This document shows, piece after piece, positions 8,501 to 41,315 of a stretch of 50,807 nucleotides of DNA; position 1 is the first letter of the stretch, and each line of letters begins with the position of its first letter. The notes under the pieces were generated by a model. It searched no databases. It was given only the letters and a program-made list of their open reading frames with translations, and was not told where the DNA came from. Both the position numbers and the translations under genes were made by a program. The stretch lies in assembly GCA_029432795.1 (NCBI GenBank), contig JARNMJ010000031.1, forward strand, positions 1-50,807, written 5' to 3'. The stretch is from Pontiellaceae bacterium B12219. GTDB lineage: Bacteria > Verrucomicrobiota > Kiritimatiellia > Kiritimatiellales > Pontiellaceae.

Positions 8501-8653
8501 CGCTTTCAGCATTTCCCCGGCGGTCATGGCATCCTGAGCGAGTGCCAGCGATGCCGACCCCATGAGGGCGACTACAAGTACACATTGACGAAATAACGAA
8601 AAACGTCCGGCTTTTTTAGTTAACATCATTAACGAATCCCAAACTGAATTCAC
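5579..8653 (-). CDS. large exported TPR-repeat protein
   Basis: 1024 residues. After a basic N-terminus comes a signal sequence (LVVALMGSASLALAQ, about residues 26-40). Nearly all the rest is tetratricopeptide-like helical pairs with spacing near 34-37 residues, for example AMEAKRYDDAIESMYMYL, LVMQNYEASESSFKYVL and GLLDEAIADYERAFEAS, as in outer-membrane assembly and gliding scaffolds such as YbgF-like proteins. The C-terminus is a Ser/Glu-rich tail. The first codon at 8653 is GTG; an ATG pair at 8629/8626, close to the signal peptide, may be the real start. It is the first gene of the ExbBD operon and probably acts in the periplasm, binding partners rather than catalysing a reaction. Confidence 0.87.
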   Translation of the reverse strand: MNSVWDSLMMLTKKAGRFSLFRQCVLVVALMGSASLALAQDAMTAGEMLKAAMQAMEAKRYDDAIESMYMYLGEVSESKAPRVVSIAQDIRFKLASILIQQERMDEAAAILQDYIDQPLALKKRQAMKMLATCYFDIEAYEDCAATVTNAIYYNENPVLIAQRVTDSDEEDYSKTKIEPEPEYTQKDLTTLHMTLAESYYKLEEWDLCIRPFSYVIEHTSNSQRKGYAIMQVINALINIPAYDRIMEWVPQLYRTSARYDIRVNLALMNAAAALYEEGEYDSALPLYRMIMPRDELIAYQEAQMREMRIAVGLPPEAGAELTEEEMLLFGGDAAATAEAEVNKPKQLVELEALIVALKNLPPYELDIQYRMADLYKTVERYWEALKFFGTVYQADPISEIGERCIYEMVDMLLQSLNELETAETLALNHISNYKEGATPRQLAYMLTGYYQQHDMMPSIKTLKPYIDDFVRTNDEFIVRYDAELYFMQGVADLVMQNYEASESSFKYVLDAFPGSHQEANSIYWYSMSQLFLQKYAEAYPNFERYIKQFPQDQYVDECYYQGGICLFGQEKYPEAQERFSYVIESFPNSSVYPEACSMRGDIYGADGLLDEAIADYERAFEASVKPNQATYATFQMAEVYEAEAKYEDIIRVVERYKDRWGGEADIAKALYWIGKTKIQQKRYDEAVETYVDAIVEYGGDLRQDGVDLMISELVKISSIYLTPEQREELVADLMAAEAVAANETLQLRLRVTLAKLQGTEFELGRQLLAELDTLDNASPPVLATICDASFEIEDYSRSEELLRIFVNKFEDSDFMRAAYKLRGFGQFAEEDYEGTMQTINDAQALYGTDFDVAWAQLLKARVFLAEGDIEEAREANMSILTVPSWRGVPVAQATYQLGQVEEAAGNLAKAFAFYQRTYFQYKGHAGGYWAAEGYLASAEILKKMGRENDVRNTYRAMLFDPYVNTLPQAEVASTYLGAAEVAEIEAFLETGSTTNISIVVEAELTGGSKTASGTAEESSSEESE

Positions 8654-9102
8654 GTTCCCTTACGCCTCGAACCACATCTAACAAGTTCAGAGACACTAAA
8701 AAAGGCAACAACCTATTCTATCATACCCCTTATCCAGACCTCGAATGACGAGTATCCAGAAATACAGGGAAAATATATGAGAAAATAAACCCGTGAGAAA
8801 GATCTAAGTTTGTAAAAAGTGATTTATTATCCGCTCTTTCCCTCTCATTTCAACGGAACTGAGCCCTTATGTTTGACTTACACAAATAAAATATCAGATC
8901 ACAATTCATCCAAATTTAACATTCCGCACCCAGTCCAACGCCATTCTCGCTTTCAATGTACTTCTTAAACATTGAAAAAGGCGGCTTGTAATTCCTTCCT
9001 GTTGGAACCACTATCCCGCGCCTTTACGCAAGGAATGTTGATTTTCTAAAATCCGCATATTGCCCGGCACCCCTTCAATCCAACCAGACAGGAACACAGT
9101 TC
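8654..9102. other. 449-bp divergent intergenic region with a hairpin
   Basis: No gene is visible. The region should hold the promoters of the ExbBD operon (leftward) and of the methyltransferase gene (rightward), but I see no convincing -35/-10 pair. The clearest structure is a 9-bp inverted repeat, TTTCAATGT (8951-8959) and ACATTGAAA (8969-8977), with a 9-bp AT-rich loop. No U-tract follows on either strand, so an operator is more likely than a terminator. A smaller palindrome, GATTTT-CT-AAAATC, lies at 9040-9053. Confidence 0.4.
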
Positions 9103-9774
9103 ATGAATCCATGGGTTTTACTCGACACCACAGAAGTCCCCGGCGACGGCGGTATAATGAAGCTATACCAGCGAGCCTTCGAATTTTCAATCAGTGTAAA
9201 AAATGAAGAACTGATGAACAGCCGCATGCACGGCTCCGAAGATGCCCTGGCGGAACTGGCCTGCCGCCGCGTAGCGCAGCGCCAAAACCCCTGCGTTCTC
9301 ATCGGCGGGCTTGGAATGGGATTCACTCTGCGAGCCGCCCTGAACGAATTCGGGCCTGTTGCAACCGTCGAAGTGGCAGAACTGGTTCCCGCCGTGGTTC
9401 GGTGGAACCGCACCCATCTGGCCGATCTCGCCGAAAATCCACTGGCCGATTCCCGAACCGTGGTTCATGAATCCGATGTCGGGCTGGTCATCCGCAACGC
9501 CACCAACCAATACGACGCCATTATGCTCGATGTCGACAACGGCCCCGACGGCCTCACTCACGCCGGCAACGACCGCCTCTATACCGCCGGCGGCATCAGC
9601 GCCGCAAAAAAAGCCCTCAAACCCGGCGGTACCCTCGGCATCTGGTCTGCCGAACCCGACGCATCCTTCACCAAGCGTCTGCGCGGTGCCGGCCTGAAAA
9701 TCGAAGAGGTCACCGTACGCGCCCGAAAAAATAAAGGCCGCCGCCACACCATCTGGCTCGCAGAGAAAACGTAG
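9103..9774 (+). CDS. spermidine synthase-like SAM-dependent methyltransferase
   Basis: 223 residues with a Rossmann fold of the spermine/spermidine synthase type. The glycine-rich SAM-binding loop is PCVLIGGLGMGFTLRAAL (about 65-82), an acidic strand end follows (VATVEVAELVPAVVRW), and the polyamine-synthase-like DVDNGPDG is near residue 146. The usual GGGDG loop is replaced by GGLGMG, so true spermidine synthesis is uncertain; many such proteins are of unknown substrate. It is followed 59 bp later by a pseudouridine synthase gene on the same strand. Confidence 0.8.
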   Translation: MNPWVLLDTTEVPGDGGIMKLYQRAFEFSISVKNEELMNSRMHGSEDALAELACRRVAQRQNPCVLIGGLGMGFTLRAALNEFGPVATVEVAELVPAVVRWNRTHLADLAENPLADSRTVVHESDVGLVIRNATNQYDAIMLDVDNGPDGLTHAGNDRLYTAGGISAAKKALKPGGTLGIWSAEPDASFTKRLRGAGLKIEEVTVRARKNKGRRHTIWLAEKT

Positions 9775-9788
9775 CGCGTTCTTGTAAT

Positions 9789-9803
9789 TTCCAATTATTG
9801 GAA
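9789..9803. repeat. dispersed palindrome, exact intergenic copy
   Basis: TTCCAATTATTGGAA is a perfect 6-3-6 inverted repeat in the short gap between the methyltransferase stop and the pseudouridine synthase start (9834). Confidence 0.8.
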
Positions 9804-9833
9804 ACATGATGTTCGGCTTAATCAGGAATCACT

Positions 9834-10664
9834 ATGAAAAAACAAAGCTTCACCGTTCAATATAAAGACGAAGGCAAACGGCTTTTTGCCGTCATTGCGG
9901 AACAACTCAATATTTCAAAAAAGCAGGCGCAGGCCGCCATCGATGCCAAGCTGGTCCTCGTGAATGGCAAACGCGTCTGGATTCGCCGGCATGAGGTAAA
10001 AGAAGACGATCTCGTTGAAATTATGATCGACGATTTCAAAAAACCAACTGCCAAGCACATCGCGATTCTCTGGCAGGACAAAGACTATCTGATCGTCAAC
10101 AAACCCGCCTATTATGTAACCAATGCGGCGGATGACAGCATTGAAGCCAAACTCCGCATACAGGAAAAAATTCCGAGCATCTGCGCAGTTCACCGATTGG
10201 ATAAAGAAACATCGGGCTGTGTGATTTTTGCTAAAAACTCGGAATCCAAAAAAGTGATGCTTCCTTTATTTAAAGGGCGCGACATCATGAAAATCTATCG
10301 TGCCATCACCGTCGGTGAAGTGCCGAAGATCTGGAAAGAAATCCGAACCGACATCGACGGCTATATGTCCACCACCCTGCTCAAAATTCTCGACACTAAA
10401 AAACAGGCCAGTTACCTCGAGCTGCGCATTGAAACCGGCCGAACGCATCAGATTCGCCGCCACCTCGCCGATAAACGCTATCCCGTGATGGGCGACAAAA
10501 AGTATGGCGGAACCGGCAATGAGATTTCTCTCGAACAGCCCCGCCAGATGCTGCATGCCTACCGCCTGATTTTCCCGCATCCGAAAACCGGTGAGCCCAT
10601 TCGCGCCACCGCCCCGCTGCCCGGCGATTTCAAAAAATGCCTGGCGCAGCTGAGGCTGAAGTAA
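9834..10664 (+). CDS. RluA-family pseudouridine synthase
   Basis: Isomerises uridine to pseudouridine in rRNA or tRNA. The 276-residue protein has an N-terminal S4 RNA-binding domain (about residues 10-70, with KKQAQAAIDAKLVLVNGK) and then the catalytic domain. The active-site motif HRLDKETSGCVIFAKN around residue 120 carries the catalytic Asp. The C-terminal RTHQIRRHLADKRYPVMGD is also typical of RluA/RluC/RluD proteins. The exact target position cannot be read from the sequence. It converges with the gene at 10671, leaving only 6 bp between stop codons. Confidence 0.92.
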   Translation: MKKQSFTVQYKDEGKRLFAVIAEQLNISKKQAQAAIDAKLVLVNGKRVWIRRHEVKEDDLVEIMIDDFKKPTAKHIAILWQDKDYLIVNKPAYYVTNAADDSIEAKLRIQEKIPSICAVHRLDKETSGCVIFAKNSESKKVMLPLFKGRDIMKIYRAITVGEVPKIWKEIRTDIDGYMSTTLLKILDTKKQASYLELRIETGRTHQIRRHLADKRYPVMGDKKYGGTGNEISLEQPRQMLHAYRLIFPHPKTGEPIRATAPLPGDFKKCLAQLRLK

Positions 10665-25787: not shown

Positions 25788-26252
25788 TTAAAATACCTGA
25801 AGAATAATGCCTTCGAGGCCGGAGGGCAGCTCAACAAAGCCCGCTTCAATATTACCCATCAGTTTTGAGCCGAGCGGCGATTCGGGTGTGATAACGGTAA
25901 CGGTCCGCCCCTCCACCGTCACCTCCGTTCCGCCGCCGCAGTTGAGCAGCATATACAGATCGGTCTCTCCATCCAGATCCACTTCAGCAATCGCGCCGAT
26001 GTCGATTTCCTGACCCGAGAAATCTTCAATCGGCATCGCCTTCAATTCATCGAGCTGACGCTGAAGCTGCTGCACGTGGTTCGCATAGCCTTTCGCCAGA
26101 AAAGCCGCTTCGAACCCGGTCGTATCGCGCTGTTTCTCCGCGCCCACCGCACTGAATGCCGCTCCGGCATTCGACTGCACATTCGCCCGCGCCTGCCGCA
26201 CAAGCTCGTTTTCCAAGGTCTGGATCACCGCATTTAAAATGGTTTGTTTCAT
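25788..26252 (-). CDS. GreA/GreB-family elongation factor-like protein
   Basis: 154 residues. An N-terminal helical region (about 1-80) with coiled-coil character is followed by a beta-rich domain; TPESPLGSKLMGN (about 125-137) matches the SPLG block of the GreA/GreB C-terminal domain. Gre proteins enter the RNA polymerase channel and help cut backtracked RNA; the divergent N-terminus leaves the precise role open. Its first 14 codons are exactly repeated at 27033-27075, on the far side of the MntA/HepT pair. Before that insertion the gene probably began at a GTG (27076) overlapping the stop of the 63-residue upstream gene. Confidence 0.75.
   Translation of the reverse strand: MKQTILNAVIQTLENELVRQARANVQSNAGAAFSAVGAEKQRDTTGFEAAFLAKGYANHVQQLQRQLDELKAMPIEDFSGQEIDIGAIAEVDLDGETDLYMLLNCGGGTEVTVEGRTVTVITPESPLGSKLMGNIEAGFVELPSGLEGIILQVF
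26209..26251. repeat. 43-bp direct repeat, copy 1 (start of GreA-like gene)
   Basis: Identical over 43 bp to 27033-27075. This copy holds the working start of the GreA-like gene, with ATG at 26252. It includes one dispersed palindrome (26211-26225). The flanking bases differ (G/A before, T/C after), which marks the repeat limits. Confidence 0.97.
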
Positions 26253-26300
26253 ACAGATAGATCTTTATTCTTAACTGTCTTAACGCTGAACCAGCCTGCT

Positions 26301-26600
26301 TTAGTTTAAAGAAAGGATTTCGTAGTTTGCCTCAATGACGGCTCGAAATTCCGGGGTAATCGCATGCCAATCGAGCACATCAATCTGAATGGGCAAATCA
26401 GATTCTTCAAATGCTTCCCGAATGTCTGCAAGGGTTAAAAAATTCAGTTTGTCAGGTCCGACAATCGCAAGATCCAGATCCGACCAGGACTTTTCCGTTC
26501 CCCGAACTCTGGAACCGAAAGCCCGAATTTCACAGGACGGAACATAGTCCGCCAGAATCCGCCGGACGGTATTCAGATGATTCTCTGCCAGGTTAATCAT
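26301..26600 (-). CDS. mntA: MntA-like minimal nucleotidyltransferase antitoxin
   Basis: 99 residues. The polymerase-beta-type motif GSX10DXD is complete: GSRVRG through SDLDLAI (about residues 29-44), and a third acidic site is in IQIDVLDW. MntA proteins neutralise the HEPN toxin HepT by adding AMP units to it (type VII toxin-antitoxin). Its start overlaps the end of hepT by 8 bp, so the two are coupled in the usual toxin-first order. Both lie within a segment bounded by a 43-bp direct repeat. Confidence 0.92.
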   Translation of the reverse strand: MINLAENHLNTVRRILADYVPSCEIRAFGSRVRGTEKSWSDLDLAIVGPDKLNFLTLADIREAFEESDLPIQIDVLDWHAITPEFRAVIEANYEILSLN

Positions 26601-27006
26601 TGCGGGCCGTTATCCTGGAAAGCACATCCATTGAAGCCGGCAGAAAGGCCTGTGCCACACTGAATACATCATTTACCGTTTCAACATTATAGGTATGTGA
26701 GGTTTCGTTTCTGGATTTATGAAATACCATCCAGCCCTCCACATCATCAATCAACCGGTTTTCATGGCACAGACGGAAAAGCTGGCGACGCGATACACCA
26801 TCAACTTCCTCAGCGCTCACATTGGCCTCCAGCCAACGTTTCATCATTTTCCAGCATTGTTCATAAGCCACTTCAAAATTCTGCACAACACCGGCACGCA
26901 AGGTTGCCATCAGATCTTCATCGCCGCCCGCCTGCTCCTTTGCAACGCGCAAAGACCGTTCCAGTGCCGCAATTGCCTTTTCAAGACTGATTAACTCAAG
27001 TGCCAT
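26593..27006 (-). CDS. hepT: HepT-like HEPN RNase toxin
   Basis: 137 residues, all helical, of the HI0074/HepT group. The RX4HXY active site is intact: RNETSHTY near residue 98. In this family it cuts RNA unless AMPylated by MntA. A good AGGAG site lies 7 bp before the ATG and directly follows the stop codon (27020-27022) of the truncated leader reading frame, so ribosomes finishing that leader could restart here. The N-terminal 40 residues contain the long helix EKAIAALERSLRVAKEQAGG. Confidence 0.92.
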   Translation of the reverse strand: MALELISLEKAIAALERSLRVAKEQAGGDEDLMATLRAGVVQNFEVAYEQCWKMMKRWLEANVSAEEVDGVSRRQLFRLCHENRLIDDVEGWMVFHKSRNETSHTYNVETVNDVFSVAQAFLPASMDVLSRITARND

Positions 27007-27019
27007 AGCCTATCTCCTG

Positions 27020-27076
27020 TCAAACCATCGAATTTTCCAAGGTCTGGATCACCGCATTTAAAATGGTTTGTTTCAC
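27020..27076 (-). pseudogene. truncated original 5' end of the GreA-like gene
   Basis: A GTG at 27076 opens 14 codons identical to the GreA-like start, then four codons not shared with it and a TGA (27020-27022). The GTG overlaps the TGA of the upstream 63-residue gene as GTGA, a usual translational coupling. This suggests that the gene first started here and that the toxin-antitoxin segment entered later. Confidence 0.75.
27033..27075. repeat. 43-bp direct repeat, copy 2
   Basis: Exact copy of 26209-26251, 824 bp away start to start. Together the copies frame mntA and hepT. One dispersed palindrome (27035-27049) is inside. Confidence 0.97.
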
Positions 27077-27264
27077 GGTTCGTAATCGAGCAGTTCGGCG
27101 CCTTTGATCAGGCGGCAGAATTCTTTTTTGGTGACGAGGTGCGTGGTGCCCTCGCCCGTAACCGGATCCGTCATGATTTTGTAACTGACGGCTAAACGCG
27201 CGAGTTCACAGACGCGGATATACTCGTCGCCCTTTTTATAAAGTTGGTTCTGTTGTAATTTCAT
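27073..27264 (-). CDS. small conserved-looking hypothetical protein
   Basis: 63 residues (MKLQQNQLYKKGDEYIRV at the start), with a basic, beta-rich first half and a C-terminal VTKKEFCRLIKGAELLDYEP. I do not recognise a family. An in-frame extension to 27366 exists but would run into the end of the upstream gene, so the ATG at 27264 is preferred. Its stop TGA overlaps the GTG of the truncated GreA-like leader. Confidence 0.65.
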   Translation of the reverse strand: MKLQQNQLYKKGDEYIRVCELARLAVSYKIMTDPVTGEGTTHLVTKKEFCRLIKGAELLDYEP

Positions 27265-30586: not shown

Positions 30587-31246
30587 CTACTTTTGGAAAG
30601 TGATCGGCACGCGCATCCGGAACTGGACGGCTTTGCCTTTACGTTTACCCGGTTCAAATTTCCACTGCTTAACCGCCTTCAATGCGGGATTGTTAAAGGA
30701 AGGATGCGTAGATTTCTGCACCTTTAAATCGCGCGGCCGGCCGGACTGGTCGACCACGAATAAAATATAGACAGTTCCCTGCATTCCTTTACGGGCCAGC
30801 TCGGGCGGATAGATCGGCGCGGGCTGATACACCACGCGCGGTTTCTGGTCGAGATCCGACAGCGAAAAGATGGCATCCACATCGTTCCCTTTTCCGGCTA
30901 CGCCATCGAGGTTGATGGAAAAATCGCCGCCGCCGAACCCGCCGTCGCCCGGATTCAAAGCCAGCTCAAGCTGGGAAAGATCCAACGGTGCGGCATCCAC
31001 CGCCGGGGGCGGAGGCGGCTGTTCTTCCGGCTCCGGCTCTTCCTCTTCCTCCATCGGAGGCGGAGGCGGGGGCGGCACATTGGCCACCTCCACCGAACGA
31101 ATCGTCAGATCCTTGCCAGGCGGTTTGGTGATTACCTGCAGAATGGGCAGCAGCATGAAAAAACAGAACGTCAGTCCCAGCCCCAGTCCAAGACTGGCGG
31201 ACTGGCGAAGAACCGAACGAAAAAATCTGGCGAGCGTTTCCAACAC
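30587..31246 (-). CDS. tonB: TonB energy transducer
   Basis: 219 residues. A cytoplasmic N-terminus, one membrane helix (GLGLGLTFCFFMLLPILQVI, about 19-38), then a Pro/Glu-rich linker (PPPPPPP and EEEEEPEPEE around 58-78) that spans the periplasm, and a TonB C-terminal domain (about 135-219) with YPPELARKGMQGTVYILFVV and WKFEPGKRKGKAV. It carries proton-motive energy from ExbB/ExbD to outer-membrane receptors such as the one at 34788. The stop is a TAG. A dispersed palindrome overlaps the last codons (30584-30598). Confidence 0.93.
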   Translation of the reverse strand: MLETLARFFRSVLRQSASLGLGLGLTFCFFMLLPILQVITKPPGKDLTIRSVEVANVPPPPPPPMEEEEEPEPEEQPPPPPAVDAAPLDLSQLELALNPGDGGFGGGDFSINLDGVAGKGNDVDAIFSLSDLDQKPRVVYQPAPIYPPELARKGMQGTVYILFVVDQSGRPRDLKVQKSTHPSFNNPALKAVKQWKFEPGKRKGKAVQFRMRVPITFQK

Positions 31247-31249
31247 AAT

Positions 31250-31660
31250 CTACCCCTGATTTTTGAGGGTGGCGATGCTCACCTTCACGGCACCGGCCAG
31301 CTTGGCTTCGTCGATCACGCGGACCATCAGGCCCGACATCACATTCTGATCGGCCTGAATGATGACCGGCACTTCTTCCTTCTGCATCATCCGTTTCACC
31401 AGCGGGCGAATTCCACTGATTCCGATTTCATTTCCGCCATACACAATTTCTCCGTTTCCGGTGATCGCAATCATGATGCTGGTTTTCTCCAACTGGACCG
31501 ATGAAGCCGCCTGAGGTTTATCCACCTCCACGCCGGTTTCCTCCACAAAGGTGGTGGTCACGATGAAGAAAATGAGAAGAATGAAAACACAGTCAATCAG
31601 CGGGGAAATATCCACCACTGCTTCGGTATCGTCGTCCGAACTGCTTTTAAAACGAGCCAT
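31250..31660 (-). CDS. exbD: ExbD of TonB2-type system
   Basis: 136 residues with one membrane helix and the conserved Asp (SPLIDCVFILLIFFIVTT). The periplasmic part has EEVPVIIQADQNV and ends at VKVSIATLKNQG. It lies 3 bp upstream of tonB and follows exbB after a 138-bp gap without a visible gene. It forms the proton-motive complex with the ExbB at 31799. Confidence 0.93.
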   Translation of the reverse strand: MARFKSSSDDDTEAVVDISPLIDCVFILLIFFIVTTTFVEETGVEVDKPQAASSVQLEKTSIMIAITGNGEIVYGGNEIGISGIRPLVKRMMQKEEVPVIIQADQNVMSGLMVRVIDEAKLAGAVKVSIATLKNQG

Positions 31661-31798
31661 TGTTTATACTCCGTAAATTGAAAGATGAAGGTTGAAATCA
31701 GAACAATGAAACTCGACCCGACGGCGCTGTGGCATCTATTGAGGCAAACGCCGAATGAGTTCCGTTTTCTTCTTTCATCATTCCTCTTTTTTCTTTGC

Positions 31799-32425
31799 CT
31801 AAGCGGCTTTGGCCGCGTGTTGGCTTTCTTTAAAAATCCGTTGAGAACACACCGTGTTCAGGTGTGCTAGGAAGGCCTTATACTGCTGGTGTTCCCGTCC
31901 GAGTTTGTACTGAAAAATCAGGCCTGGAAGCGCGATGAGCAATCCGGTTTCGGTGGTGATCAAGGCTTCCGAAATCCCGGAGGCCACCATGCCCATGGTT
32001 TTGTCGCCGCCCGCTCCGGTGGCCAGAGCGGCAAAGGTGGCGAGCATACCGGTCACGGTGCCGAGCAGCCCGAGCAGCGGCGCAATGCTCACACAGGTCT
32101 GCATCACTTTCAGGTCGCGGTTAATCGGAGCAATTTCAGTTTGGTTCAGCTCATCAAAGAAAATATTGATCTCTTTGAGCGTATTGGCGCTCATCACAAA
32201 CCGGATCATCCGCCCGACGGGACCGCGGCCTTTTTCCGGCTCTTTGACCCAGCGCTTCATTTTCTTTTCGGTAACGTAGAGGTAGCCCTTTTCCCGAATG
32301 CGGAAAAAGATACTGGACCCCATATAGAAAATGATCAGGGCATCCACGGCCAGCGCGATCATCGCCCATCCGCCGGAAGCCCAGATGGCAAGGGCCTGTT
32401 CCCAAATTGTTTTTGTCTCTTCCAT
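31799..32425 (-). CDS. exbB: ExbB of TonB2-type system
   Basis: 208 residues with three hydrophobic segments. The first is AIWASGGWAMIALAVDALIIFY (as positions about 13-34), then the signature SIAPLLGLLGTVTGMLATFAAL and EALITTETGLLIALPGLIF. It has no signal peptide and is shorter than the other ExbB-like protein (3780), as expected of ExbB2 in TonB2 loci. It is 34 bp downstream of the TtpC-like gene; the gap contains a GTGCGTAA fragment like the heptamer region at 13.9 kb. Confidence 0.92.
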   Translation of the reverse strand: MEETKTIWEQALAIWASGGWAMIALAVDALIIFYMGSSIFFRIREKGYLYVTEKKMKRWVKEPEKGRGPVGRMIRFVMSANTLKEINIFFDELNQTEIAPINRDLKVMQTCVSIAPLLGLLGTVTGMLATFAALATGAGGDKTMGMVASGISEALITTETGLLIALPGLIFQYKLGREHQQYKAFLAHLNTVCSQRIFKESQHAAKAA

Positions 32426-32459
32426 AGTGCGTAATCCGTGAAACGTGAGGCGCGATTAA

Positions 32460-33932
32460 TTACGCAGGAACGGGTTCGAGTTCAGCAACGGCGGCTTCCG
32501 CTTCCGGCGGTTCTTCAACAGAACGCGTGGCGCGGTTCATGAAGAGAATCGCAATCTGTTCCATCGTGTCGGTAATGCGTTTGGCCTTGCGGGTGAGGAA
32601 GGCACTGAGCACCAATGCGGAGATGGCCACCACCAGCCCCAGTTCGGTTGTGATGAGCGCCTCGGAAATTCCGCCCGACAGTGTTTTCACATCGCCCGAA
32701 CCAAACACGGTAATCAGCTTAAAGGTGTTGATAATCCCGGTCACCGTGCCGAGCAGCCCCATCAGCGGAGCGGTGGAAGCACAGATTGCCAGCACCGGCG
32801 TGAGCTTGGTAACCTTCATGCGGGTCGTCAGCATTTCTTCATACATGACTTCTTCCACCAGATCTTTCGGCTCATTGATGTGTTCAATGCCGACGGTGAG
32901 CATCGCGGCGGTCGGGCCTTTCAGTTTTTTGATTTCGGCAGCGGCTGTTGCATGGTCGTTCTCGAGCATGGCCCGCAGCACCGGCTGAACAGCCTTTTCC
33001 GAGGTCTTCGGAATGGCGGAAAGCTGAATCCATTTGATGAGTGCAATCACGACACTGAGCCCGAACATGCCGAGAATGACATACGCCACCATGCCGCCTT
33101 TTTGAATATGCTCCTTAAACGACTCCTGGGTCTCTTCAATTTTGCGGGCGTTTCCAAGGCTTGGATCAAACGGAAAGAGGCCGCCCTTTGCGGCCACGGC
33201 GGAGGCCGTCATTTCCGCATTTGCGAGATCAGCAAAAGGCAGAACGGTGGGTTCCAGCGAGCCGAGGCGTTGTTCCGCAATCCCGGAAAGCGAACCGTCG
33301 TTCGCGGCAAACAAAGCAATGGGACCGATCAGCAGAAATTCGCCCTGCTTAACCAGACCGTCTTCCCCGGCTGCGGTACCCGAAAAGGCATCGCCGCCGA
33401 CAACCGATTGCAACCGGGCAATCGACGCTTCCACCAACGCGGTCTGCTCAACAAAAATCTCCTCATCGGAAAGGTTGCTGTTATCCGGCGCAAGAATCGC
33501 GGACTGAACAACGTCTTCGTATTGATCCAGTTCAGCAATATGTAAACGCGTTTCAAAGTTGCGGGTATATTCGCCGAGCAGGCTGGAAATATAACTGATC
33601 TCTCCTTTGCGTGCTTTAATGTCTGCACGCAGATTATTGAGATCCAGATTTCGACTGTCGAGCTGGCGTGTAATCTTCTGGTTTTCAAGCCGCACATCCA
33701 GCACTTCGTCTTCCAGGGCATTCAGCCCCTTGACCATCGGCAGTTTTTCTTTGGCGATGGTTTTCCGAACATTGGAAAGTTCCTGCAGGCTGGCTTCGAG
33801 CTTCTGCTGCATTTCGGTTTGTGAATCGGCAAACGTGTACATGGCAAACAGGCCGAGCACACAAACCGTGAAAATAAGTATCCGTTCAATTCGGTTACGG
33901 CGTTGGGTGAAATAAAATCCAATATCGTTCAT
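32460..33932 (-). CDS. TtpC-like MotA/TolQ protein with periplasmic coiled coil
   Basis: 490 residues. An N-terminal membrane helix (ERILIFTVCVLGLFAMYTF, about 16-34) leads to a long periplasmic coiled coil (about 40-130) and a linker region. The MotA/TolQ/ExbB module starts near 290 with VAYVILGMFGLSVVIALI; ASTAPLMGLLGTVTGIINT and EALITTELGLVVAISALVL follow. This design is that of TtpC, an extra protein needed by the Vibrio TonB2 system, which joins ExbB2, ExbD2 and TonB2 in the inner membrane. The gene order here (DUF3450, TtpC, ExbB, ExbD, TonB, TPR) is the same as in gammaproteobacterial loci I know. Confidence 0.9.
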   Translation of the reverse strand: MNDIGFYFTQRRNRIERILIFTVCVLGLFAMYTFADSQTEMQQKLEASLQELSNVRKTIAKEKLPMVKGLNALEDEVLDVRLENQKITRQLDSRNLDLNNLRADIKARKGEISYISSLLGEYTRNFETRLHIAELDQYEDVVQSAILAPDNSNLSDEEIFVEQTALVEASIARLQSVVGGDAFSGTAAGEDGLVKQGEFLLIGPIALFAANDGSLSGIAEQRLGSLEPTVLPFADLANAEMTASAVAAKGGLFPFDPSLGNARKIEETQESFKEHIQKGGMVAYVILGMFGLSVVIALIKWIQLSAIPKTSEKAVQPVLRAMLENDHATAAAEIKKLKGPTAAMLTVGIEHINEPKDLVEEVMYEEMLTTRMKVTKLTPVLAICASTAPLMGLLGTVTGIINTFKLITVFGSGDVKTLSGGISEALITTELGLVVAISALVLSAFLTRKAKRITDTMEQIAILFMNRATRSVEEPPEAEAAVAELEPVPA

Positions 33933-33970
33933 CTGATGTCCTATGTGTTCAAACGTGAATTAAAAATGGG

Positions 33971-34720
33971 TTAGTCAATGCGGACAGGCAGCGGAAGAAA
34001 GGCCGCCACTTTTTCATTTTTCAAAATGGAAATGGAATCGGCCACGGTCTGCGCCATTTCATTTTTCTGCTCCCACTTCCAACCCTTGGACGTCGGCGAT
34101 CCGACAAAAGCCACGTCGCCGTTGTTGTTGCAGGAGTAGGCGGCGGAATAGCCGATGTATAAGGTCTGCACTTCAGCGGTCGTGCCGTCGGCCAGCGTTT
34201 TCACTTCGCTCAGCACCGTAATTTCACCGGCCCCTTTATTAAGGTCGTTAATAATTCCGATCACGTTCTGATAACGCTCCGACAGCGAAAGATCGGTTTC
34301 CTGCGTTTTCGGAATGCGCTGGCTCAGCGGTTTAATGCGATCCTGCACCGGTTCCGGCAGCATTGTTAAAAGATCCAGAACTTCGCGCTCCAAGGTAAAG
34401 ATTCGGTTAACCAATGTGGCAGACGCATTTTTAAGTTCGTCCTTTTCCTTAACCAGATCCTCACGCTTTTTATCGGCATCGGTGATCAACGATTGGGTTT
34501 CGTGTATTTTTTTACTGAGCGTATCGCGCTCATTGCGAACCAGGTCAATCCGGTCGCCCAGGATTTCCCGTTCCAGCTCCCACCCCTGCTTTTCCTCCGA
34601 GATCAGCTTACGGGTTTCCACCCATTTCGAAAGGGTTTCACGGGTCATGTCCAGCTCATCGGCATGCACGCCGAAAGCGGCACTGGAAATTGCTAAAATT
34701 ATCAACAGTTGTTTTTTCAT
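33971..34720 (-). CDS. DUF3450 domain periplasmic protein
   Basis: 249 residues with a signal peptide (KKQLLIILAISSAAFGVHA) and a long coiled coil to about residue 120 (REILGDRIDLVRNERDTLSK). The C-terminal half is globular, with LYIGYSAAYSCNNNGDVAF and PTSKGWKWEQKNEM. This is the layout of DUF3450 proteins, usually found directly before TtpC/MotA-TolQ genes as here (38 bp). The role is unknown; a periplasmic partner of the TtpC coiled coil is likely. One dispersed palindrome at 34077. Confidence 0.88.
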   Translation of the reverse strand: MKKQLLIILAISSAAFGVHADELDMTRETLSKWVETRKLISEEKQGWELEREILGDRIDLVRNERDTLSKKIHETQSLITDADKKREDLVKEKDELKNASATLVNRIFTLEREVLDLLTMLPEPVQDRIKPLSQRIPKTQETDLSLSERYQNVIGIINDLNKGAGEITVLSEVKTLADGTTAEVQTLYIGYSAAYSCNNNGDVAFVGSPTSKGWKWEQKNEMAQTVADSISILKNEKVAAFLPLPVRID

Positions 34721-34787
34721 ATTTACCTCGGACTAGATTTCTATTGTCAGAATGTTATTTCAGAATGAGCAGTTCATTAGGGAAGTG

Positions 34788-37700
34788 TTACCAGAAGGCG
34801 GTTAGATCCAGGGAATACTCCAGCCCGCGCTGATAGGAGGTCTTCACCTGATCTGCTCCCGTATAGGGCGAGCGATAGACTTCCTGAATAACCGGGTCCG
34901 TCAGGTTCTTGGCCTTAAAGGTCAATCGCAAGTGGTTGCCCAGATTCTGTGAAACCGAAAAATTGAGCACCCCGAACTCTTTGGCATAGACATCCGGAAT
35001 GTATCCGATATCAGTGGCCGCTCCGGCGACCAGCGTATCTCCTTTCACGAAATAAAAGAGCCCGAACTGTGTGCCGAATTTTGCAAGATCATAGGTCAGG
35101 TTTACATTGAACAGGCGATCCGGCGTATTGAGCATATCCCGCGTTGCTCCGGGATAACCGGCGGTCTCCAGCCGGGCGGCATCGGTTTCATCCAGCGTGA
35201 CTTCCGATTCTATGAAGGTGGCATTTGCACCGAACGTCAGGCCTTCAAGCGGATCCCAGAACTGTCCCAGCTGCTGCCGAAACTCCAGTTCGATTCCGGT
35301 CAGCTTCCCTTCCGGATAATTAACCGGCGTAATATAGCTGCCGACGTTGGCGGCATACCCCTGGGTATATTCAATCGGGTCTTCAATGGTTTTATAAAAC
35401 CAGGATCCCGAAATCAGTCCGCCGGGATAGGGCGAATAATCCACACGCACATCGTAGTTTTTCAGATTGCTCATGATTAAATTCGGATTACCGATGAAGA
35501 CCTCCGCCCCCAGATATTCCTGCTGTTGAAGCGGGGTGAGTTCCTTGAAGGTCTGGCGGGCCACCGTCTCCGCATAAGAGAGGCGGATGATGACCGAATC
35601 AATCGGCTTAACTTCCAGCCCGAGCGACGGCAGCACATCGTTCTGCTGATAATCCACATCGGCCTCGCTGGGCAAAAGTTTGGACACCCCGGACTCCCCC
35701 GGCTTCACCCAATAAACATCGTCCTCAGGATCAACAATCGTGGTCGAAATATCCGTACTCTCATAGCGTGCGCCGCCAATGAAGGTCAAATGGGAGGAAA
35801 CCGGAAGTTCCAGCATATAGTACCAGGCGGAAATATCCTGAGCCCCGTCATACCCCGCATCAATATCCGAAGCAAACATGACATCATTCGCGGTTGGATA
35901 GTCGTCTGTCCAGAATTCACTCCATGGCAGGGACGGTCCTTTATTCGGGTTGATATTCGAATCCCCAATTTTCTTGGTATTACTGAATGATTCCTTTGTA
36001 TAGGTCCGCCGTACTTTATCATTAAACAAGCCCAGTTTCAACGCGCCCTTATCGCCGCTCCACTGCTCAAACGGCAGGCTTCCATTCAGGAAATACTGCT
36101 CACTGGTTTCATCAATGGTTTCCCAGATTCGCTGGACATTCCCCAACGATTCCACGGGCGGTTTATCCTGATAATAGCTCTGCGCAACCGCATTGGTTGT
36201 GGCGGGATTTCCCCGTCGGCCGGGAATGATCTCCGTATATCCCGGATTCCAAATAGAGCCGAACAACCGTTTATCCGGACTGTTCAGATACGAGTCGCTG
36301 CCGGCAATGGTCCAGTCCAGTTCCGGTTCCAGGAACCACAGAACATCTTTTTTTCCAAACTCCGGAAACGGCAGCACGTGCTCCCCGTGCAACTGCAGCG
36401 TAGAGGTGTCGCGTTCAATATACTGCAGTGTCTGATTCCGGCGATACGGTGCCGCATCCACATATTCCGCGCTGTCCGCCGGAGCCATCGGATCGTAACC
36501 CGGAACCTGTGAGGTCACATAAAATTCTTTGCCGCGAGTATCCTCTGCAAGCGTAGCTTTGGTTTCGGCCACATGCGTTTCCATATATAACAGTGAAACC
36601 TTCTGCTGCCCGATCTCCGCACCAACGGAACCAAGGCCTCCCCACTGGATTTCTTCGGTGCCCTGATCCACATTAAACAGACTGGTTTTAAACTGTTTCC
36701 CGGCCGTCGAATACAGGGGGTCCTCTTCAGAATGAATCGGAACATAGGCTCCGTCCCGATACCACCATTGATCATCGGTGGCATTATCCACATAAGACGC
36801 CTCCGATTTATAATAGAAATTCCCCAGGGCAGAAATCCGCACATGATCGGAAACGTTGAACGAATCGCCGGCCGTAAGCGACCAGTTATACATCGGCAGC
36901 GCATCGCCTTTACCTGTGCCCACCGCGCCGCTCCAGGTGGTGCCGGGCGTTTGCGGATCATCCGACGCTTCGAGCTGCCCCCAGTAATTCATGTCTGCCC
37001 CGTCATAGGTCAGGAAATCTCCAGCGCCCGGAACGGCGGTTTTATATTTCGTTCCCACCTTGAATTTAAGCACCGGTTCCGTCGGCATGCTTTTCAGCAC
37101 AATATTCACCGCACCGCCGGACGCATCGCCCTGCTGATTCGGGGTGAATGTTTTGGTCACCTGCATGCTTTCAATCAAGTCGCTGGGAAACTGATCCAGC
37201 TGCACGGCGCGTTTATCCGGATCGGCGGAAGGGAGGCGCACCCCGTTCATCTGCGAGCTGACATAGCGATCCGGCAGACCGCGTACCACCGCATACTTTC
37301 CATCCTGCACCGTGGTTCCCGGCACCAGACTCAACGCCTGCGCCGCATCCGAAGCCCCCGCCTGCCCCATCATATCCGAGCCCACGGAATCCATCATGGC
37401 CACACTGTCCATGCGCAGGTTCAGCAGGCCGATCTCCGAGGCCCCGCCGAGCTGAATATCGCGCACCACCAGCTCATCCATCTCTTCGTATTCGCCGGCC
37501 ATTCTGGCTTCAACATCTTTCAGTTTCCCCGGAACCACCACCACTTCGGATTGCGTAAAACGGGTATAGCCTCCTTTACTGAACATCAGGGTATATGCAC
37601 CCGGTTCAATATTCTGAAGGTTATAACTGCCCGTATCACCCGTCACAGTTTCCTGACCGGTTTCAGACACCACCACTTTCACGCCGGGAAGCGGAACCTC

Positions 37701-37811
37701 GAAATCCGAATCCATCACCACCCCGCGAATACCGCCCACCTGAGCGAATACCGCCGTGGCGGAAAGTATGAATCCCATCCCCAACGTTCTGAAAATTGTC
37801 CGGCTTACCAT
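34788..37811 (-). CDS. TonB-dependent outer membrane receptor
   Basis: 1007 residues. After a signal peptide, a carboxypeptidase-regulatory-like beta domain (about 28-95: GIRGVVMDSDFEVPLPGVKV, given to 20) precedes a likely TonB box, MDELVV near 111. The plug domain follows (SLVPGTTVQDGKYAVVRGLP, MNGVRLPS, QGDASGGAVNIVLK) and then a 22-strand-type barrel ending in a Trp after a Phe (TAFW), the usual end signal for BAM. The ligand is not known. The gene overlaps the TPR gene upstream by 7 bp and precedes DUF3450-TtpC-ExbBD-TonB, so receptor and energy supply are in one operon. Confidence 0.93.
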   Translation of the reverse strand: MVSRTIFRTLGMGFILSATAVFAQVGGIRGVVMDSDFEVPLPGVKVVVSETGQETVTGDTGSYNLQNIEPGAYTLMFSKGGYTRFTQSEVVVVPGKLKDVEARMAGEYEEMDELVVRDIQLGGASEIGLLNLRMDSVAMMDSVGSDMMGQAGASDAAQALSLVPGTTVQDGKYAVVRGLPDRYVSSQMNGVRLPSADPDKRAVQLDQFPSDLIESMQVTKTFTPNQQGDASGGAVNIVLKSMPTEPVLKFKVGTKYKTAVPGAGDFLTYDGADMNYWGQLEASDDPQTPGTTWSGAVGTGKGDALPMYNWSLTAGDSFNVSDHVRISALGNFYYKSEASYVDNATDDQWWYRDGAYVPIHSEEDPLYSTAGKQFKTSLFNVDQGTEEIQWGGLGSVGAEIGQQKVSLLYMETHVAETKATLAEDTRGKEFYVTSQVPGYDPMAPADSAEYVDAAPYRRNQTLQYIERDTSTLQLHGEHVLPFPEFGKKDVLWFLEPELDWTIAGSDSYLNSPDKRLFGSIWNPGYTEIIPGRRGNPATTNAVAQSYYQDKPPVESLGNVQRIWETIDETSEQYFLNGSLPFEQWSGDKGALKLGLFNDKVRRTYTKESFSNTKKIGDSNINPNKGPSLPWSEFWTDDYPTANDVMFASDIDAGYDGAQDISAWYYMLELPVSSHLTFIGGARYESTDISTTIVDPEDDVYWVKPGESGVSKLLPSEADVDYQQNDVLPSLGLEVKPIDSVIIRLSYAETVARQTFKELTPLQQQEYLGAEVFIGNPNLIMSNLKNYDVRVDYSPYPGGLISGSWFYKTIEDPIEYTQGYAANVGSYITPVNYPEGKLTGIELEFRQQLGQFWDPLEGLTFGANATFIESEVTLDETDAARLETAGYPGATRDMLNTPDRLFNVNLTYDLAKFGTQFGLFYFVKGDTLVAGAATDIGYIPDVYAKEFGVLNFSVSQNLGNHLRLTFKAKNLTDPVIQEVYRSPYTGADQVKTSYQRGLEYSLDLTAFW

Positions 37812-39010
37812 GGGTTGCCCAATCCTGCTTTAATTTCAGCCATCCGGTCCCGAAGCGCAGCATCGGGTTCAACGTCAAGGCGGGCCATCGAAAGGCCGAT
37901 CAGACACAGATCTTCCGCACGGGGACGGGAGTTGCTGTTCACCACCGCTTCCTCCACGGCCAGCGCATAGATGTTCCGGGCCTTGGAAAAATCGCCCATC
38001 CGGGCATACGCCTCGGCAACCGACAGCAACGATTCCGTGCGAAAGACATCAATGATCTCGCCCTTCTGCTCGGAGAAAACTTCAACGGCTTGCTGCAGCG
38101 CTTCGGCAGCAAGCTCCGGTTGTGCACAAAGGCAACGGAGGTCGGCCATTTTGGCCAGCACCTGCACATGATATTCCGCCGGCCAGACTGAACCGTCCAC
38201 AATCGCCTGCGCCTCATCGGTAAGGTGCTGCGCGGTTTCCAGATCCCCGGCCTGCTGCGCGGTTTCCGTCATCGTGGTCAGCAGATCAATTCGGCTTAAA
38301 TACGGCAGTTTATTCCAGCCGCCCAGAATCGCCTGTTCAATCCATTCACGGCGGGCGGTATCGGCATAAAACTGTTTATAAAGAGTGGTATAGGATGCGA
38401 GGGCCGTCTGCTGCAGTTCCAGACCGCCCACGGCAAGCTGGGCATTCAGCTTTGCGGCATAGTCATCAAATTCATCCGGCGCACAAACCTGCGCATTATT
38501 CAGTTCAGCAGAACCCTGTTCCGATGCATTCAGCACCCGGTTGACCTGCTGCAGCTTATTGGTGTTTCCTAACGCCTTCCAGGCCTTGGAAAGTTTCAGC
38601 AGCACCGTATCGCGCCGCCATTCCTGCTCGGCCGTATCCGCCGAAAACCGGGCCTGATTCAACAGCGTTTCCAATTGGTTCGTCACCCCGTGGGCAATGC
38701 TGTAATTGGCGTAGTCAGCGAGCGCCACACCCTGCCGCCAGTTTGGAATCTGTTCCGCGTATTTCAAAGCCAACGACGGCTGATCCAGTTCCAGCGCCGT
38801 CTCAACCGCCTTTTGCTGAAAACGGGCGCGGTCTTTAATATGCGGAGCAAGCGGAATGGCCGTTGCCAGTTCGAACGATTGATTCAACAGCACGCGTTGA
38901 AAGCCGGCGGCCGGAGCATCGGCCAGCTCCATCTTTTTTTCCATTTCCATGCCGTAAGACGCCAGCACAGCAAACGAACCTAACCATAATATTTTTTTAA
39001 TTAACCGCAT
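37805..39010 (-). CDS. exported helical-repeat protein of receptor operon
   Basis: 401 residues from the ATG at 39010, preceded by AAGGTG; an extension to 39088 exists but would place 26 residues before the signal peptide (RLIKKILWLGSFAVLASYG). The rest is helical pairs of TPR/HEAT-like type (ALELDQPSLALKYAEQIPNW, EAYARMGDFSKARNIYALAV). The function is unknown. It is placed between the beta-helix protein and the TonB-dependent receptor and may sit in the periplasm beneath the receptor. Two dispersed palindromes (37974, 38577) are inside. Confidence 0.75.
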   Translation of the reverse strand: MRLIKKILWLGSFAVLASYGMEMEKKMELADAPAAGFQRVLLNQSFELATAIPLAPHIKDRARFQQKAVETALELDQPSLALKYAEQIPNWRQGVALADYANYSIAHGVTNQLETLLNQARFSADTAEQEWRRDTVLLKLSKAWKALGNTNKLQQVNRVLNASEQGSAELNNAQVCAPDEFDDYAAKLNAQLAVGGLELQQTALASYTTLYKQFYADTARREWIEQAILGGWNKLPYLSRIDLLTTMTETAQQAGDLETAQHLTDEAQAIVDGSVWPAEYHVQVLAKMADLRCLCAQPELAAEALQQAVEVFSEQKGEIIDVFRTESLLSVAEAYARMGDFSKARNIYALAVEEAVVNSNSRPRAEDLCLIGLSMARLDVEPDAALRDRMAEIKAGLGNPW

Positions 39011-39105
39011 CAAATTCACACCTTTTGCACACATTAATCGAGATATAAGAGCGGTGGCAGGGAAACCCCTGCCACCAGTATATTTCATGTTCCTATCGGA
39101 TCAGG

Positions 39106-40842
39106 TTATTTGGTAACCACGCGGTAGAAACCAGCGGCCTGCAGATTTGCGTCGCCATAGTTTTTATACGATCCATCCCCCATCACCGTGGCCACATACT
39201 TCCAGGGACCACCCGGGTTATCAGAACCTTCGATTGCGTAGGACACGCCATACTCGGACTGGAAGGAAACCACTACTCCCGGATTGATCGTTGCAGCCGG
39301 AGAAGCCGAGTTCATGCTGGTATCCGTCATGCCGTAGGCATCAACCGAAGTCCAGCCGGCCAGCCAGTTATAGCTGGATGAGAATGCTCCGCGATACGGA
39401 GCGGAAACATAGAATCCATCCGCAACTTCCGGAGAGGCAACAGCAAGCGCATCGTTCTGAGCGCACGGGTTGATGTTCGTCACCAACGCAACGCTTTTTC
39501 CGCCGCGGGTAACTGTTTCGCCACGGGTAAAGCTTACAATCGGATCCGCTGTTGTAACCACATTATCGAGTGTCGGATTGCTGGCCCAGGCGCCGGCTGT
39601 TCCGTTCAGAACGCCGAGGGCAAGGATTTGATCATTCGCATCAGACTCATTGCAGTAGTTGAACAGGCAACCTGTCATTTCAGCAAGATAGCCGGAGGTC
39701 TGAACCGGATACGCATCCGCCTGATTGGCATACACATCAGACACCCAGTTTACAGCAGAGTAGTTGCTGTAAGCGGTAGTCCAGGTTTCTGCCCAGGTCA
39801 GAGTTCCGTTATACCCATACCCCTGCGCACCATCTCCGTCATCGCCATCAAAACGAATCGCTTCTTCGCCGATATCCATGAAGATGCTGTTGTGATACTG
39901 CACCCGGGCATTGTCGCGCCATGCGGTTCCGCCGTCACCGGAAAGCGGATTTCCGATTACGGTGAAGTTGGCAATCTTCGTGGTGGTTACCGGCTGTGCA
40001 TCGGAATCTTCCGCACCGTCGATTTCAATACAGTTGTCGCCGAGGCCTGAACCCTGGCTGGCATCTGTGGAATAACCCTGAACGATCAGACCGAACTGCG
40101 CTTTACCACGCCATCCCTGATCCACATCCAGACTGTCATCACCGATGTTCCAGATGTTCAGATATTTCAGGTTAACCGTGCCGCCCCAGATTTCGATGCC
40201 GTCATCCACGTTGTTCATAATATCAATGTGGTGAATATCCGTCTCGCGACCGATCGCACCCAGTGACAAACCATTCAGTTCGTTTGCCAAACCAATAACT
40301 TTACCGCCGTAACGAAGCGACAGATAACTGATCGAGCCGCTGTCATCATTATCATCATTACCGCCGTAATACGTATCATTCACGCCGTCATCAACCAGCC
40401 CTTCCATCTGAACCGTGTTCAAACCGGTCGGAGTCGGTGTATTGCCCGGACGCGAACGAACCGCATCGGAAGAAGCGCCGATCAGGCCGCGTCCCATCAG
40501 CGTCAGGTTGCCCCATTCGTTACAGCCTTCATGCCAGTTCACCAGATCGTCAAGGGTGGAGGTCATAATGACCGGCTCATCCTGCGTTCCTTCAACATAA
40601 ATCTTTGCGCCGCGGGAAACCGCAAGCGATCCGCCCACTCCCGCCGTACTCTGAACCAGCGTTCCTTCTTTAATCGTGAGCGTGGCCCCTGACCGAACAT
40701 AAATCTGTTTCGTCAGGTTATACACATTGTCTTTTGTCCACGTCACCGAATTGGTGATGTCCGATGTGATGTCGATATTGGCTGCCTGAGCGGCAACTCC
40801 GGCACCCATCAATGCTGCTGCAATGATAAACTGCTTTCTCAT
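39106..40842 (-). CDS. exported beta-helix-like protein of receptor operon
   Basis: 578 residues with a signal peptide (KQFIIAAALMGAGVAAQA). The mature part opens ITSDITNSVTWTKDNVY and then QIYVRSGATLTIKEGT, a pattern common in surface proteins of Bacteroidetes and Shewanella-like bacteria that lie next to TonB-dependent receptors. The middle has right-handed beta-helix-like rungs (GETVTRGGKSVALVTNI, IWGGTVNLKYLNIWNIGDDS). The C-terminus is a small beta domain ending in FYRVVTK. It is the first gene of the nine-gene TonB2-type operon, with ribosome binding site AAAGGAGAA. It may be a surface ligand-binding partner or a cargo. The precise role is open. Confidence 0.75.
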   Translation of the reverse strand: MRKQFIIAAALMGAGVAAQAANIDITSDITNSVTWTKDNVYNLTKQIYVRSGATLTIKEGTLVQSTAGVGGSLAVSRGAKIYVEGTQDEPVIMTSTLDDLVNWHEGCNEWGNLTLMGRGLIGASSDAVRSRPGNTPTPTGLNTVQMEGLVDDGVNDTYYGGNDDNDDSGSISYLSLRYGGKVIGLANELNGLSLGAIGRETDIHHIDIMNNVDDGIEIWGGTVNLKYLNIWNIGDDSLDVDQGWRGKAQFGLIVQGYSTDASQGSGLGDNCIEIDGAEDSDAQPVTTTKIANFTVIGNPLSGDGGTAWRDNARVQYHNSIFMDIGEEAIRFDGDDGDGAQGYGYNGTLTWAETWTTAYSNYSAVNWVSDVYANQADAYPVQTSGYLAEMTGCLFNYCNESDANDQILALGVLNGTAGAWASNPTLDNVVTTADPIVSFTRGETVTRGGKSVALVTNINPCAQNDALAVASPEVADGFYVSAPYRGAFSSSYNWLAGWTSVDAYGMTDTSMNSASPAATINPGVVVSFQSEYGVSYAIEGSDNPGGPWKYVATVMGDGSYKNYGDANLQAAGFYRVVTK

Positions 40843-41315
40843 TTAACATTCTCCTTTAGTTTTTATCCGTCAGTTGAAGCGGTCGCCCGCGATATATAAA
40901 ATGGTGCTAAAGGGGAGAACCGGAGGCCTTTTCTTTTTTACCTTCCGTATTCGACAATCCAATTGAAGCGTTAAGTGAAAAGGGTTCGTTAATTAAAAAC
41001 CGTTCCAATTGAATTGCTCCCTTCAACGCCGATGATTTGGCCCTTCCGATGTTTGGAAAACATTAGGAGATCTTATGGATGCCGTTGGCACTTTGTGGCT
41101 GAATCGCTAAGAAAAGGTTAGCGTTCTGTTTGCGCCCTTTAAAACGCCCGGTTTTCCAACCTCTGGAAGACAAACCGGCGGCCGCGGGTTTTCCGAACAG
41201 AAGAATGAGACTCCCCGTTGCAAGCAGACGGGGTATTAAACCCAATGCGTCGCAATAAAAAAACGCCCCGGCACAAATGCACCGGAGCGTTTCCAAAACT
41301 GCCTATTGATTTAAC
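40843..41315. other. 473-bp intergenic region before the TonB2 operon
   Basis: The region holds the TonB operon promoter (leftward; a TATATAT-rich stretch at 40890-40902 may be its -10), two exact dispersed palindromes (41044-41058, 41154-41168), and the terminator of the oxidoreductase unit. No gene is supported: the one long open frame here runs through the terminator. Confidence 0.5.
41257..41292 (-). terminator. intrinsic terminator of the oxidoreductase operon
   Basis: On the minus strand AAACGCTCCGG (41282-41292) pairs with CCGGGGCGTTT (41261-41271) except for one mismatch, with a 10-nt loop, followed by a run of T residues (GCGTTTTTTTATT). It follows the stop codon at 41316 by about 24 bp. 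Confidence 0.88.

Follow-up and report, generated by a model that had tools for sequence, protein, structure and literature searches.

The movement of small toxin-antitoxin (TA) pairs without a transposase is a long-standing question. Insertion with a long duplication of the target is a pattern known for restriction-modification (RM) systems (PMC3874152, PMC1643837, PMC3031569), and when E. coli received DNA that was homologous at one end, 56 out of 60 recombinants had part of the homologous locus duplicated, over 109–950 bp in the 14 that were sequenced (PMC3240628). As for the proteins, the RX4HXY motif of the Legionella HEPN-MNT pair is its RNase site and GSX10DXD its AMPylation site (PMC11586414). 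Here we describe a predicted HEPN/MNT pair enclosed by a direct repeat in a 50,807-nucleotide stretch of DNA from Pontiellaceae bacterium B12219 (contig JARNMJ010000031.1, referred to below as the window). The locus appears to be a fresh case of a known insertion pattern, the mechanism of which seems better supported through sister cases at other loci.

The pair and the repeat around it

Profile searches with the hepT product returned PF08780 (4.3e-33, 114.4 bits against a cut-off of 31.8) and TIGR01987 (7.1e-18, 64.8 bits against 55.8), and its RNETSHTY motif fits RX4HXY. The mntA product scored above the cut-off for PF01909 and PF18765, and the motif GSRVRGTEKSWSDLD read in its translation fits GSX10DXD. 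The nearest solved structures are HI0074 (PDB 1jog) and a Legionella HEPN protein (8xdj) for hepT, and HI0073 (1no5, 5.3e-21) for mntA. The classical HepT/MntA models NF047751 and NF047752 gave 18.5 and 36.7 bits, below their cut-off of 60. By its sequence, the toxin belongs to the HI0074 branch and not to classical HepT, and the name MntA/HepT given in a first-pass annotation is right as to HEPN/MNT but not as to the branch of the toxin (18.5 bits with the HepT model). The pair is thus predicted from its families and motifs to be a type VII (HEPN/MNT) toxin-antitoxin system. The mntA product also hits a PADLOC model labelled as a type I specificity subunit, over the first 96 model positions (1.8e-25); a fused nucleotidyltransferase or a mislabelled member in that model may be the reason.

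On the minus strand, the gene order is p63, copy 2 of the repeat, hepT, mntA, a 48-bp spacer, and the GreA-like gene beginning in copy 1 (Table 1). The two copies are direct repeats identical at 43 of 43 positions with an offset of 824 bp, and ungapped similarity ceases beyond either end. Such an exact repeat is far beyond chance, and the absence of differences sets an upper 95% bound of 6.7% on the divergence of the copies. The p63 gene ends in CCG-TGA, and a GTG (27076-27074) overlaps its stop (GTGA); this GTG is followed in copy 2 by 14 GreA-like codons, then by NSMV and a TGA stop (27022-27020), which immediately precedes the hepT ribosome site (GACAGGAGATAGGCT-ATG). In copy 1, the same 14 codons stand under an ATG (26252-26250). 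The first-pass annotation had described this exact repeat with its coordinates, the GTGA overlap and the frame lost at TGA 27020, the same codons under ATG 26252, and a leader stop next to the hepT ribosome site, all of which hold.

Table 1. Features of the locus on the minus strand of the window, listed from p63 to the GreA-like gene.
Feature	Position	Strand	Evidence or remark
p63, gene for a conserved 63-residue protein	27073..27264	-	ORF; TGA stop overlapping the copy-2 GTG
43-bp repeat, copy 2 (outer, relic beginning with GTG)	27033..27075	-	GreA-like codons 1 (part) to 14
Putative short leader frame, VKQTILNAVIQTLENSMV followed by a stop	27020..27076	-	Translation; ends 13 bases before the hepT ATG
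hepT, predicted HEPN toxin, HI0074 branch	26593..27006	-	PF08780, TIGR01987; RNETSHTY
mntA, predicted minimal nucleotidyltransferase antitoxin	26301..26600	-	PF01909, PF18765; overlaps hepT by 8 bases
48-bp spacer from mntA to copy 1, newly flanking the GreA-like gene on its 5' side	26253..26300	-	Occurs once in the genome
Copy 1 of the 43-bp repeat, within the intact GreA-like gene (ATG start)	26209..26251	-	Sequence comparison
GreA-like gene, 154 residues, whole	25788..26252	-	Same-genus orthologues; PF01272 weak

No third copy of the repeat was found in the genome, even allowing 3 mismatches in 30 bp, and the genome contains a single PF08780 gene and no PF01934 gene. With pair and repeat each single in the genome, a multi-copy mobile element was ruled out. 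In the approximately 0.79 Mb of the genome that was scanned, the repeat of the window was the sole isolated single-copy direct repeat of at least 24 bp at less than 5 kb; the remaining direct repeats of at least 24 bp with a spacing of 60–5000 bp, ten of which were inspected as alignments, resemble paralogues, tandems or dispersed repeats.

The geometry of the locus is that of attL and attR sites with restoration of a gene, as would be produced by site-specific integration of an element whose 43-bp att core rebuilds the start of the gene, the integrase having been lost or acting in trans. Such an origin is most improbable, given that the 781 bp between the copies hold just hepT, mntA and short flanks, with no integrase gene, as the first-pass annotation had already remarked, that neither the pair nor the repeat has another copy in the genome, that related pairs lie at unrelated genes with no shared ends, and that no 43-bp core flanking other cargo has been seen so far. 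An artefactual origin, in which a metagenome contig was wrongly joined through an overlap of 43 bp, deserves similarly little credence: the genome is a fragmented draft of 273 contigs, probably a MAG, and many assembly k-mers are longer than 43 bp, but both junctions require real reads and comparable structures occur in independent genomes.

The insertion site in related genomes

The p63 gene is present in 12 other genomes of the same genus (66–95% identity), and orthologues of the GreA-like gene were found in 12 same-genus genomes with 56–88% identity over their full length and an MK start in all. The label GreA-like itself, taken over from the first-pass annotation, is weakly supported, as PF01272 was matched in 5 of the 12 orthologues, at best with 0.0019. 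In four genomes (G026, G005, G001 and G025), p63 is followed by one copy of the GreA-like gene without the pair, which identifies the pair as an insertion. Accordingly, the earlier claims that the pair had inserted between p63 and the GreA-like gene and that the upstream 43-bp copy is a relic of the 5' end of this gene stand, and the full-length similarity to the orthologues bears out that the downstream gene was left whole.

The first-pass annotation had also taken the GTG for the original start, and had expected relatives lacking the pair to carry p63 followed directly by the GreA-like gene with a GTGA junction. The gene order is as expected but the junction is not: the start is ATG in 12/12 orthologues, and neither a GTGA junction nor a GTG start was found in any of them, an outcome that the annotation itself had listed as speaking against its reading. 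The junction reads CCG-TAA-G-ATG in G026 and TGA, 9 bp, ATG in G005, and the two genes are separated by roughly 135–157 bp in G001 and G025. The GTG start is therefore probably not ancestral in the genus, and GTGA could be specific to the lineage of the window. When the 48-bp spacer was compared with the 5' flanks of the 12 orthologues, no significant similarity appeared; the spacer probably comes from a donor.

The two genes are farther apart in G016, with about 5.1 kb of other sequence between them. In this genome, the closest relative, a palindrome-like sequence (GTAGTTCCGCCTTCAG...CCGCCTGAAGGCGGAACTAC) directly precedes the ATG of the GreA-like gene (L096, G016:C33:60001-80000, 4610-10360), and the spacers of G001 and G025 are short, GC-rich and palindrome-like. 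Because of the 5.1 kb in G016 and these palindrome-like spacers, the site looks like an insertion hot spot. The frequency of variable-length spacers at this site, and the TGA common to the p63 stop and the gene start at the junction, would agree with a two-step origin, in which the pair entered the p63/GreA-like spacer without making a repeat and a template switch during replication, by way of this common TGA, later copied 43 bp of the GreA-like start to the end of p63. As this scheme needs two events and leaves unexplained the recurrence of such repeats at other HEPN/MNT loci, it is very unlikely.

The nearest pairs, with 72–79% identity in hepT, occur in five same-genus genomes at unrelated genes and without flanking repeats, and among the relatives examined no genome was found in which the pair precedes a GreA-like gene that is otherwise intact. 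In G005 (L094), the pair borders the conserved cluster that in the window (positions 30700-41100) lies next to the insertion site, and does so at the opposite end of this cluster. A local relocation, over about 14 kb, was considered and judged a coincidence, the proteins being no closer than those of other relatives.

Gene-end relics at other HEPN/MNT loci

The flanks of about 155 distinct HEPN/MNT loci across the phylum were searched for direct repeats bracketing the pair. In the last set, an ungapped score of 30 was reached by 8 of 57 loci, as against 35 when 1342 placements were drawn at random within these stretches (odds ratio 6, p 0.0002, the p value being indicative only because placements overlap). 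Many of the matches, on both sides, were dispersed repeats. We called gene-end type those cases in which one copy lies at the end of an intact gene and the other is a relic beyond the pair. By eye, and in a classification of our own made after the matches were seen, this type comprises the window and five further pairs (L322, L228, L274, L166 and L290). Nine loci were left out, their repeats appearing dispersed or intergenic (L052, L168, L319, L288, L324, L280, L238, L225 and L173), and the repeat at L059 is uncertain.

Among the controls the type was found once, at L330 (7142-8944), where a 45-bp relic of the end of an intact gene (44 positions identical) lies beyond inserted non-TA genes; the gene-end footprint is thus not limited to TA pairs. 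Outside the HEPN/MNT set, a RelE-like/antitoxin pair at L282 (1376-2436) is bracketed by an imperfect repeat of 115 bp (83%). In G031 (L305, G031:C28:5001-20000, and L274), several HEPN/MNT pairs lie beside sugar-nucleotide genes, with gene-end relics at two of them (fcl and rfbC) and two HepT genes close together at fcl.

The locus L322, in genome G035, is the closest parallel to the window. Here a mntA-hepT pair lies upstream of lnt, with a 30-bp exact repeat from the TG of the lnt start. In both loci the repeat begins exactly at the TG of the start codon, with GTG in the outer copy and ATG in the inner one. Pair-free relatives from the genus of L322 have the same upstream gene with lnt closely after it, with GTG in five genomes, and the outer copy at L322 has the junction of these relatives. 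In this parallel case, then, the outer GTG copy does match the arrangement of genomes without the pair. What stands before the inner copy, by contrast, resembles the flank of lnt in another species, G031 (alignment score 103, against 44 for the best of 300 shuffles), and the core of this flank occurs once each in G035 and G031. As the outer and inner flanks match different relatives, the copies at L322 carry the flanks of two different lnt alleles.

At L274 and L228, where the neighbouring genes are rfbC and fcl, respectively, the relic on the far side of the pair consists of the 3' end of that gene, in frame to a stop of its own and with a C-terminus that differs from that of the intact gene. 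Counted from the junction outward, the copies share 29, 30, 30, 28, 25, 25, 13 and 22 of 30 positions at L274 and 21, 22, 20, 11 and 14 of 22 at L228, so that they are almost identical near the junction and fall to the level of separate alleles farther out. At L274, moreover, the two tails are nearest to the rfbC of two different species. This is the pattern left when a crossover with a divergent donor falls within the gene and the other end is joined without homology, and it is unexpected from fill-in of a staggered cut. The bias of mismatches among codon positions (4:4:17 in L166, 2:1:8 in L274) was dropped as proof of allelic origin and not used, because a similar bias is predicted for a relic that decays next to a gene under selection.

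Origin of the repeat and comparison with known systems

The gene-end relics at these loci suggest that ordinary recombination on the neighbouring gene, and not a dedicated integrase, brought the pair in. For the window, we consider it, by analogy with these loci, somewhat probable (about 0.55) that the locus arose by homology-anchored capture from a close relative. The pair would have been acquired recently from a relative having it directly before the same GreA-like gene, on a fragment made of the pair, the spacer and the first part of the GreA-like gene of the donor. This fragment would have recombined by homology within the first codons of the resident gene, while its other end was joined without homology after resident codon 14 (homology-facilitated illegitimate recombination); alternatively, the fragment may have circularised first and entered by one crossover, with the same product. 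The outer 43 bp with the GTG would then be a relic of the resident gene start, ending where the non-homologous join fell, after codon 14, and the inner copy, with its ATG and the 48-bp spacer, would be the donor's start joined to the resident gene. In this manner p63 would retain a stop, the GreA-like gene would remain whole, and the pair could be retained through addiction. We infer the donor, the crossover position and the addiction at this locus.

Capture requires neither integrase nor transposase. It is supported by L322, L274 and L228, where the copies are distinct alleles or one of them has the flank of another allele, and the same gene-end geometry at L166 and L290 also counts for it, with the E. 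coli recombinants mentioned above as a precedent from the laboratory. A repeat starting at the start-codon TG, as in the window and L322, is expected if homology between alleles begins there, which under capture would be because the upstream DNA of resident and donor differs. Against it, RecA-dependent recombination would have had little to work with if the available homology was no more than 43 bp; possibly, a longer donor gene with the crossover farther in supplied more. The failure of the 48-bp spacer to match any relative's 5' flank, the failure to find the donor arrangement among the relatives and the lack of GTGA in them also weigh against it.

The main rival, which we regard as unlikely, is insertion with a long target duplication, in which the pair would have entered at a staggered break about 43 nt wide in a p63-GTGA-GreA-like junction, and fill-in would have left the 43 bp on either side of it. 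The repeat is a direct repeat of host sequence, exact over its 43 bp and with the insert between the copies, as in the RM pattern, and G026, G005, G001 and G025 provide an empty single-copy allele, albeit with ATG and not GTGA. The 43/43 identity fits capture and target duplication alike, the mixed-allele signature not being visible in the window. However, target duplication accounts poorly for a repeat beginning exactly at the start codon in two loci, for two alleles or a second allele's flank at L322, L274 and L228, and for the lack of the GTGA junction in all 12 orthologues, and the locus encodes nothing that is known to produce a break of this kind. As these three loci mix alleles, homologous recombination with a relative's gene is preferred over a target copy or an island-like integration, and the mode proposed in the first-pass annotation, which copies the 5' end of the target, is probably wrong. 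A bolder variant, that HEPN/MNT pairs, perhaps RM systems too, have their own or a recruited insertion process copying tens of bases of the end of a target gene, would make the TA pair a minimal mobile element and the mixed-allele cases secondary exchanges; we give it very little weight.

If capture is true, two-gene modules would spread as passengers of homologous recombination at the genes next to them, leaving as a readable footprint a gene-end relic, the truncated second allele of the neighbouring gene. What has been described as long target duplication in RM systems could then also represent two alleles of a single gene. Existing genomes allow a test, by comparing both copies with the alleles of relatives.

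With respect to described systems, the pair resembles HI0074/HI0073 (1jog, 1no5) and the Legionella HEPN-MNT pair (8xdj; PMC11586414) in its overlapping genes, both motifs and families, and is unusual in its genomic setting only. The RM long target duplications of Nobusato et al. (2000) and Furuta et al. (2010), in the account of PMC3874152 and PMC1643837, likewise combine an addictive pair with a long direct repeat of host sequence, without transposase or integrase and with an empty site in relatives. They differ in that the cargo here is a HEPN/MNT pair with 43 bp, whereas the duplications so recounted are on the order of 100 bp, and in that several HEPN/MNT cases like the window have copies that are different alleles, which points to homologous recombination. 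Finally, homology-facilitated illegitimate recombination and single-crossover entry of circularised fragments (PMC3240628) would share with the window one homologous anchor and one non-homologous join, but that process was observed in laboratory transformation or conjugation with duplications of 109–950 bp, whereas the process proposed here is deduced from natural genomes and involves 43 bp.
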